Shown here piece after piece: positions 8,861 to 12,954 of a DNA stretch of 12,954 nucleotides (its first letter is position 1; every line of letters begins with the position of its first letter). This stretch comes from Omnitrophica bacterium RIFCSPLOWO2_01_FULL_45_10. Its GTDB lineage: Bacteria > Omnitrophota > Gorgyraeia > 2-01-FULL-45-10. The notes below the pieces were generated by a model that was not told the origin of the DNA, searched no databases, and worked only from the letters and a program-made list of their open reading frames with translations. The DNA lies in contig MHFL01000027.1 in the NCBI GenBank assembly GCA_001804165.1, positions 38,615 to 51,568 of the forward strand, in the 5' to 3' direction. Made by a program: the position numbers and the translations under genes.

Positions 8861-8965
8861 CGTCATTGCGAGGGCGCAAAGCGCCCGAAGCAATCCCGAA
8901 GGTTGCGAGGAACGCGGCGACGAAGCAATCTAAAAAGAGATTGCTTCGCTTCGCTCGCAATGACG
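8861..8965. repeat. Palindromic dispersed repeat (REP/MITE-like)
   Basis: A 105-bp element is bounded by a perfect 12-bp inverted repeat, CGTCATTGCGAG (8861-8872) and CTCGCAATGACG (8954-8965). Inside are GGGCGC-AAA-GCGCCC (stem arms 8872-8877 and 8881-8886) and GAAGCAATCT/AGATTGCTTC (8922-8931 and 8938-8947). Words such as CATTGCGAG and GAAGCAATC are widespread in dispersed bacterial palindromic repeats; that part is from memory, not a search. It sits between folK and panC and is open in frame with panC, so ORF callers may extend panC through it. No transposase is present. Confidence 0.85.
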
Positions 8966-8982
8966 CGTTAGAAAATGACAAC

Positions 8983-11831: not shown

Positions 11832-11834
11832 CAT

Positions 11835-11901
11835 GTTAGTTATTTGTTTTTAGCCGTTAGGTCGATTTTTTACTAACAACTAATAACTAACAACTGATTA
11901 A
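11835..11901. repeat. AT-rich inverted and 7-bp direct repeats
   Basis: A perfect 9-bp inverted repeat, GTTAGTTAT (11835-11843) and ATAACTAAC (11883-11891), encloses a 39-nt loop. Its right side reads as heptamers TAACAAC, TAATAAC, TAACAAC, TGATTAA (11874-11901). The left side has a TTAGnnn periodicity of 7. The purpose is unknown. There is no T-tract after the right arm, so a terminator is unlikely. The array sits upstream of the paired hairpins and the 79-residue gene. Confidence 0.6.
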
Positions 11902-11902
11902 C

Positions 11903-11968
11903 CTTGAAATTTTCTCTGTAAAATTTCAAGATGGCCATTTTTAAATTTGACAGAGCAAATTTAAGAAT
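11903..11968 (+). promoter_or_regulatory. Tandem hairpins with mutually complementary loops (candidate leader RNA)
   Basis: Hairpin 1 has a perfect 11-bp stem, CTTGAAATTTT (11903-11913) and AAAATTTCAAG (11920-11930), with loop CTCTGT. Hairpin 2 has a perfect 9-bp stem, TTAAATTTG (11941-11949) and CAAATTTAA (11956-11964), extendable by four more pairs to 11937/11968 (one G-U), with loop ACAGAG (11950-11955). The two loops are exact reverse complements. The 20-mers at 11907-11926 and 11943-11962 can also pair with each other at 18 of 20 positions. The two differences form the closing pair in each hairpin (T-A versus G-C), a compensatory exchange. It lies just upstream of the ribosome binding site for the next gene. 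Confidence 0.65.
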
Positions 11969-11971
11969 TGA

Positions 11972-11980
11972 AGGGGGGTG
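11972..11980 (+). promoter_or_regulatory. Exceptionally strong ribosome binding site
   Basis: AGGGGGGTG (part of AAGGGGGGTGA) lies 7 nt before the ATG at 11988. It is the strongest Shine-Dalgarno match in the window and decides that start. It follows hairpin 2 by 3 nt, so folding of the leader could affect ribosome access. Confidence 0.85.
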
Positions 11981-11987
11981 AACAAAG

Positions 11988-12227
11988 ATGGCGGAAAAAG
12001 TCGCGAAAGTCGGCATCAAGCGCAAGAAAGGATATCTTTATTACGTCGATAAAAAGGGGAACGTCGTAGAGACGAAGATGGCGAGGGGCAAATCGAAGGG
12101 CGGCGGCGGCAAGGTAATCGCCAAGCCCGGCGTAAAGAAAGTGAAAGGATATCTCTACTTCGTTGACAAAAAGGGCGACGTCTCGAGAGCCAAGATGCTG
12201 AGAGGCGGAAGAAAGAAAAAAAGGTAA
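11988..12227 (+). CDS. Small basic protein of two 30-residue repeats, function unknown
   Basis: The protein has 79 residues and is very rich in Lys, Arg and Gly. It consists of two copies of one unit: residues 5-34 (DNA 12000-12089) and 44-73 (12117-12206), joined by a glycine-rich linker (KSKGGGG, 35-41-ish). The copies align without gaps and share 19 of 30 residues. Common core: A-K-x-G, then K-G-Y-L-Y-[YF]-V-D-K-K-G-[ND]-V, then K-M-x-R-G. The aromatic and glycine pattern suggests a small beta-hairpin per unit. The C-terminus is GGRKKKR. No signal peptide, membrane segment or cysteines are seen. Charge would fit nucleic-acid or ribosome binding, but that is inference. It has its own very strong ribosome binding site and a terminator, so it is likely well expressed on its own. 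Confidence 0.85.
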   Translation: MAEKVAKVGIKRKKGYLYYVDKKGNVVETKMARGKSKGGGGKVIAKPGVKKVKGYLYFVDKKGDVSRAKMLRGGRKKKR

Positions 12228-12321: not shown

Positions 12322-12954
12322 ATGGAACGAGATACGATCTTAATAAGGGGCGCGAGGGTTCACAATCTAAAGAATATCGACGTAGAGATACCCCGTAATA
12401 AGTTAGTCGTTATAACCGGCCTTTCAGGTTCGGGTAAATCCTCATTAGCGTTCGATACACTCTACGCGGAGGGCCAGCGAAGATACGTCGAGAGCCTTTC
12501 GAGTTACGCGAGGCAATTTTTGGAGCAATTGGAGAAGCCCGACGTCGACTATGTCGAAGGCTAATCCCCCGCCATCTCTATCGAACAGAGGACCGCGAGT
12601 TCAAATCCCCGCTCGACCGTGGGGACGCAGACCGAGATCTACGATTATCTTCGGCTTCTCTTCGCGAAGATCGGCATGCCCCACTGCACCAAGTGCGGAA
12701 AAATTATAACGAGGCAAACGTCACAGGAGATAGTCGAGCAAGTCGCATGCCTTCCTAAGGGTTCGAAGATCATGATACTCGCGCCAAAAGTGCGCGGAAG
12801 GAAAGGCCAATACAAAGAGTTATTCGAGAAGGCGAAGGCGGATGGGTTCGTAAGGGTTAGAGTCAATGGCAAGGTTCTGGAGTTGGAAGGTAAGATTGAA
12901 TTGGATAAGAATAGGCGCCATTCCATCGAAATCGTGGTAGATAGGCTTGTTGTG
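12322..12954 (+). pseudogene. uvrA: Excinuclease ABC subunit A, 5' part, with in-frame TAA at codon 81 (partial)
   Basis: UvrA is the ABC-type ATPase that scans for DNA damage with UvrB in nucleotide excision repair. The first 80 codons are canonical: [14 protein letters not shown] (11-24), Walker [10 protein letters not shown] (33-41), and [21 protein letters not shown] (44-64 region). A TAA at 12562-12564 follows VDYVEG, where UvrA normally has Leu in a GLSPAI-type motif. The same frame then continues without interruption to the window end: SPAISIEQRT, NPRSTVGTQTEIYDYLR, HCTKCG. A single T-to-A change in a TTA codon would explain it. Either the gene is truncated, the stop is suppressed, or it is a sequencing or assembly error. 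Other genes here end with TAA, so the codon is not reassigned. The gene runs off the window edge. Confidence 0.9.

Follow-up and report, generated by a model that had tools for sequence, protein, structure and literature searches.

We found that the two adjacent hairpins at positions 11903-11968 of the analysed DNA (a stretch of 12,954 nucleotides, hereafter the window) belong to a dispersed repeat, and we consider this element, at a rough probability of 0.68, to be a short, AT-rich, non-autonomous mobile repeat of REP-doublet or MITE-like kind, with its arms inverted around TGGCCA. Besides its dispersal, the element displays covarying stems, absence from orthologous sites and a sense-biased placement beside Shine-Dalgarno (SD) motifs. 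The copy in the window occupies positions 11899-11970 of the forward strand, inside a match to our covariance model R1 (11897-11972; 98.3 bits on the forward and 82.9 bits on the reverse strand), and ends with TTG in place of the TTA of most copies. Arm A (11903-11930, forward strand) reads CTTGAAATTTT[CTCTGT]AAAATTTCAAG, with the loop at 11914-11919, and arm B (11938-11967, forward strand) carries the loop ACAGAG at 11950-11955; the sequence, the fold and the stem covariation (of helix 1 and helix 2, respectively) all point to these hairpins. Between them lies TGGCCA (11932-11937), the centre of the inverted repeat, which is conserved in the 14-copy alignment apart from one copy with TGACCA. 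Directly 3' of the element there is an SD-like run, AAGGGGGGTGA (11971-11981, forward strand), followed by a gene for a 79-residue basic protein (11988-12227, forward strand).

The first-pass annotation had correctly read the two loops as exact reverse complements and the loop-closing pairs as different between the hairpins (T-A versus G-C). Its suggestion that the hairpins form separately agrees with the predicted RNA fold of the window copy (MFE -19.6 kcal/mol, z -2.0, with 8 of 200 shuffles equally good), two hairpins being favoured over a single long hairpin in the 76-nt element (-18.1 versus -14.9 by fold prediction). The centroid fold has no pairing into the SD, while a few outer pairs of the MFE structure reach the G run. 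As for the strong ribosome binding site that had been claimed, an SD-like GGGGGG is indeed present at 11973-11978, but it is located 3' of the element, and element-free orthologues of the gene, read in loci on the forward strand, have SD-like runs as well. A further inverted repeat, GTTAGTTATT...AATAACTAAC, lies directly 5' of the element (window 11834-11892) as a predicted hairpin, where R1 scores 6-7 bits, which is chance level. Elsewhere in the window, a repeat ATTGCGAGG...GAAGCAATC...GATTGCTTCG...CGCAATGACG, which we take to be of REP-like kind, is found at 8861-8966, at the start of an ORF that resembles panC by eye.

A blastn search with the element matched many places in its own genome (1.43 Mb in 64 contigs, about 87% complete), and R1, built from an alignment (A1) of 14 compact copies, brought the total to 17, the remaining three being found later by the model itself. 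Stability of the fold is by itself modestly better than chance, and its recurrence in the genome is far beyond chance. Whether the structure always precedes the same small gene or is dispersed had been raised beforehand, and the covariance-model search answers that it is dispersed; being one of 17 such copies, it is not the own leader of the 79-residue gene. The element is 72 bp long, begins with TAA, usually ends with TTA, and forms an imperfect inverted repeat around TGGCCA with a consensus of roughly TAAyCCTGAAATTTn-CTCTGT-nAAATTTCAGGrTGG followed by its reverse complement; the GC content of the compact matches is 0.21-0.37. One tandem pair, about 70 bp apart, occurs among the 17 copies. 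When the other 16 were checked, TA was present at the left end of all 16 and at the right end of 11, where it may be either the end of the element or a duplication. Single arms, sought with a second model (R2), are mostly found as plus-then-minus pairs, and since arms A and B are no more alike within a copy (0.681) than between copies (0.690), the doublet is spread as a unit.

R1 detects copies in 9 of the 23 genomes from the family of the source organism (its own genome counted) and in none of 15 outside it, and a longer sister class, captured by model R3, occurs in 10 of 26 family genomes, with the caveat that R1, R2 and R3 partly recognise each other's copies, so that their tallies overlap. 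The sister class consists of a hairpin with loop ACAGAG, a linker of about 20 bases and a hairpin with loop CTCTGT, often followed by an SD-like run. Its matches, both strands counted, are uneven among congeners (32 in G015, 2 in G018, none in G021 and G024). Rfam returned nothing at the gathering score in the window, in nine loci (apart from one tRNA) or in 19 sister-class loci, and the element alone, searched at E<=1, gave only sub-threshold matches, mostly to microRNA families. We dropped a phage, plasmid or viral origin, as the element had no match in phages and plasmids by blastn or in viral contigs by one exact pattern. Separately, we observed a looser form, in which the hairpins stand about 12 bases further apart and which is part of a longer repeat with GTAAAATATTTTGT ends (L054, L057, L059 and L065, and at contig ends L055, L056, L058 and L060); several copies of this longer repeat coincide with contig ends. 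At another locus (L092, approximately 2544-2619), a compact copy apparently lies at the end of an ORF that looks hcp-like by eye, whose frame crosses most of the element.

Comparison of orthologous loci indicates that the element moves. The 79-residue protein has relatives in 77 of 97 genomes searched, among them MAGs titled Omnitrophota, Elusimicrobia, Endomicrobia and Woesearchaeota, and no Pfam family over cut-off; loci of its gene were taken from 30 genomes including the source, and R1 detects the element in none of the 29 relatives' loci examined. Similarly, the fabG-acpP junction is plain in 22 relatives' loci (the one weak match, in G004, is about 1.5 kb away from acpP), and in the source genome the element starts at the TAA that ends fabG, a site compatible with target duplication at TA. 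It is because the element is missing at these two orthologous loci that we conclude that it moves, and the passing remark that the structure might be an inverted duplication or mobile palindrome was right. The sister class behaves alike at secD-yajC, where 24 loci hold a copy only in G015 (before secD) and G022 (before yajC), and their congeners lack it. At 12562-12564 of the window, an in-frame TAA breaks a frame that by eye resembles uvrA, which may be a pseudogene or a sequence error.

These loci also bear on a rival explanation, which we regard as unlikely, namely that the element represents a family of cis-regulatory leaders whose hairpins and loop-loop pairing in mRNA would control downstream translation, being spread by insertion and kept by selection. 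Nearly all orthologous loci examined lack the element, which speaks against such a family. In a comparison of 14 relatives' loci with our own copies, the neighbouring genes had no position in common (panD neighbours were found in two genomes, with the element elsewhere), and orthologous leaders across genera were rejected; a later, wider survey found two shared genes, the only exceptions to the lack of conservation before orthologous genes. A leader copy at rpsB is common to three congeners, and the same ferritin-like gene (79% identical) stands behind a compact copy here and behind a sister-class copy in G011, a different genus. Both cases favour the leader explanation, but the rpsB copy fits retention by selection and simple inheritance alike.

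The covariation check that had been proposed gave a divided answer in the 14-copy alignment of the compact class, strongly positive for the stems and negative for loop-loop pairing. In the stems, 96.4% of cells are paired versus 84.8% after shuffling, double-change cells number 40 versus 13.7, and both partners vary in 11 of the 24 stem pairs (6.4 on average after shuffling). Between the loops, double changes are absent, and paired cells amount to 76.2% versus 77.1% after shuffling. Exact loop complementarity is found in 8 of the 17 compact copies (seven by script, plus copy C31, which has a stem mismatch and was added by eye from the printed sequence) and in one of 13 copies from relatives, and copy C51 has its first loop in inverted orientation, so that both loops read ACAGAG. 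Given the absent loop covariation, the 8 of 17 copies and C51, the complementarity in the window is a product of the inverted arms that roughly half of the copies have retained. The kissing-loop or switching leader envisaged for this structure thus finds no support in the compact class, where we reject the kissing loop on the absence of loop-loop covariation and the centroid fold leaves the SD unpaired.

On the other hand, the sister class argues against a flat dismissal of a leader, as it shows both pooled loop covariation and a sense, SD-adjacent placement. In alignment A3 (20 sister-class copies, including the near-duplicates L283 and L284), 89.2% of loop-pair cells are paired versus 83.2% when shuffled, with 8 double-change cells versus 2.6, and none of 500 shuffles reached the observed paired share, double-change count or score, in favour of the leader family. 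This covariation is suggestive and does not prove loop pairing. Among 47 sister copies scored, 42 had two 6-nt loops, and just 9 of these 42 show exact complementarity, compared to 4.1 expected under a pooled shuffle (p 0.009) and 7.5 under a within-genome shuffle (p 0.28); the latter value counts against the leader family, since lineages may then account for the pooled signal. Nor did we find a signature of a selected RNA strand, as the excess of G.U over A.C among stem mismatches (35 to 26, p 0.31; in the smaller sets, 11 to 4 in A3 and 10 to 9 in A1) is not significant.

The surprising feature of the element is the placement of its copies, which tend to lie immediately 5' of the ribosome binding sites of unrelated genes. 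We defined sense orientation by the arm sequence (the best strand under R1 and R3), independently of the genes, and counted copies with an SD-like motif and a start codon within 50 nt. The compact class gave 10 sense versus 2 antisense of 17 (p 0.039), and the sister class 22 versus 0 of 46 (p 4.8e-7; one of a tandem pair was dropped), both in the direction expected of leaders; 13 other copies gave 0 sense and 2 antisense. Counting by hand, 11 of 13 compact copies are in sense, as one SD lies outside the motif list used by the script. The 22 sense sister copies include the three orthologous rpsB leaders. Furthermore, ribosomal proteins (S2, L20, L25, L31 and L32) are the products of five of the 20 distinct genes behind sister-class copies, an excess with P 5.6e-4 if 55 of 1500 genes are assumed to be of this kind, which again favours the leader family. 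However, no start was detected after 24 of the 46 sister copies, and AAGG flanks copies that lack a nearby start as well: among 20 such copies, it was found on the left of 9 and on the right of 10, or on the left of 5 and the right of 6 of 15 after near-duplicates were collapsed, against backgrounds of 0.054 and 0.076 (40 sister copies were used for the flank and background analyses, leaving out L074, L397-L400 and L404). Because the flanks are present even without a start, a target preference is favoured over regulation, and an SD-like insertion target would explain both position and strand without it. Selfish repeats usually accumulate where harm is least, and to our knowledge a strand bias beside SDs is not usual for them. 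In pneumococcus, repeats are described as over-represented between convergent genes in the consulted part of PMC3049150.

Several copies lie between co-oriented genes, for example fabG-acpP. This arrangement would suit a role as domesticated intercistronic or 5' hairpins that serve as mRNA stability or processing sites, by analogy to ERIC and Correia/NEMIS elements and with loops of no role, and the portions consulted of PMC2229807 give ERIC and NEMIS as precedents for action on mRNA. We think such a role quite improbable, since most of the orthologous sites that we examined are without the element and the position bias of compact copies within gaps is weak, with 7 informative copies and a Fisher p of 0.025 or 0.047 depending on one gap (gap lengths were entered by hand).

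We then consider the enzyme that could move the element. The source genome has three Y1 transposases; across 32 Y1 loci, the arm model matched nothing but one compact copy, at a distance of about 1.3 kb from a Y1 gene, and Y1 and element counts are uncorrelated in 23 genomes (rho 0.02), G011 for instance having element copies and no Y1 match. DDE_3 (IS630 type, PF13358) was found in none of 25 family genomes. RAYT/Y1 and IS630 enzymes hence received no support as movers. That the element belongs to the RAYT-mobilised REP/REPIN superfamilies is very unlikely in our judgement: it resembles REPs, as the parts consulted of PMC3116915 and PMC3733652 describe them, in its inverted hairpin doublets, the compensatory changes in their stems and the presence of homo- and heterodimers, but two of the three Y1 genes (loci L067 and L068) have different hairpins of their own on both sides, there is no co-occurrence, and the 28 arms of the 14 copies, which end in TGG (one in TGA) and mostly start with TAA, have no GTAG or CGTC tag. 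A RAYT gene might simply be missing from the assembly, given its completeness. The hairpins beside the L067 Y1 gene do hold GTAG, in an arrangement as in RAYT genes.

Returning to the mobile-repeat reading, the lack of an identified mobilising enzyme (Y1, DDE_3), the strand bias and the shared rpsB leader are points against it. Under this reading, a candidate enzyme would recognise the arms, either as single strands that have folded or as inverted ends, and insertion would take place at TA in the compact class or near AAGG in the sister class. As AAGG is found in SDs, insertion there would leave copies in sense just 5' of genes. Inserted copies are probably included in the mRNA, where they may be tolerated or, in occasional cases, retained, and the complementary loops of the compact class would reflect the inverted-arm architecture and shared ancestry, not a selected kissing contact. 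The hairpin doublet is an ordinary, REP/MITE-like object, and it is its sense, SD-adjacent distribution that is surprising. A repeat landing in sense before ribosome binding sites would reveal either an SD-like transposition target or a mobile leader that rewires translation. The latter, a two-hairpin element with co-evolving sister-class loops that inserts in sense directly before SDs, has in our view a small chance of being correct; if true, an RNA control module has spread among unrelated genes, some encoding ribosomal proteins, within one family of Omnitrophota.

Among the papers searched, none described a repeat of this kind for Omnitrophota in its title or abstract. Like REP doublets and REPINs, as these are described in the sections consulted of PMC3116915 and PMC3733652 (a further, partly consulted source for the REP-doublet and MITE comparison is PMC12306157), the element consists of short extragenic palindromes in inverted pairs with compensatory stem changes, and each arm can form a hairpin by itself or join the other in a single long one; heterodimers whose loops differ are a further shared feature. 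It differs from them in its untagged, AT-rich stems, its mostly conserved 6-nt loop, its TGGCCA centre, its mere 17 compact copies, the lack of a linked RAYT gene among our findings and its sense placement before SDs. With the TA-ended MITEs (RUP, Correia/NEMIS and ERIC), as presented in the same portions of PMC2229807, it shares a length below 200 bp, A+T-richness, inverted repeats with 5'-TA at the ends and the lack of a protein of its own; unlike in these, each inverted end is a complete hairpin, no IS630-type transposase accompanies it in the family genomes searched, and a target duplication is indistinguishable from its TAA/TTA ends. In placement, the element resembles the TAACTGA repeats of Beggiatoaceae, which, according to the part consulted of PMC4679880, are dispersed and in most cases immediately precede the start codons of genes unrelated to each other, ribosomal ones among them, and for which a translational role was suggested. 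These are, however, short direct repeats and not hairpin doublets, and canonical ribosome binding sites are described there as rare beside them, whereas an SD-like run follows the element here.
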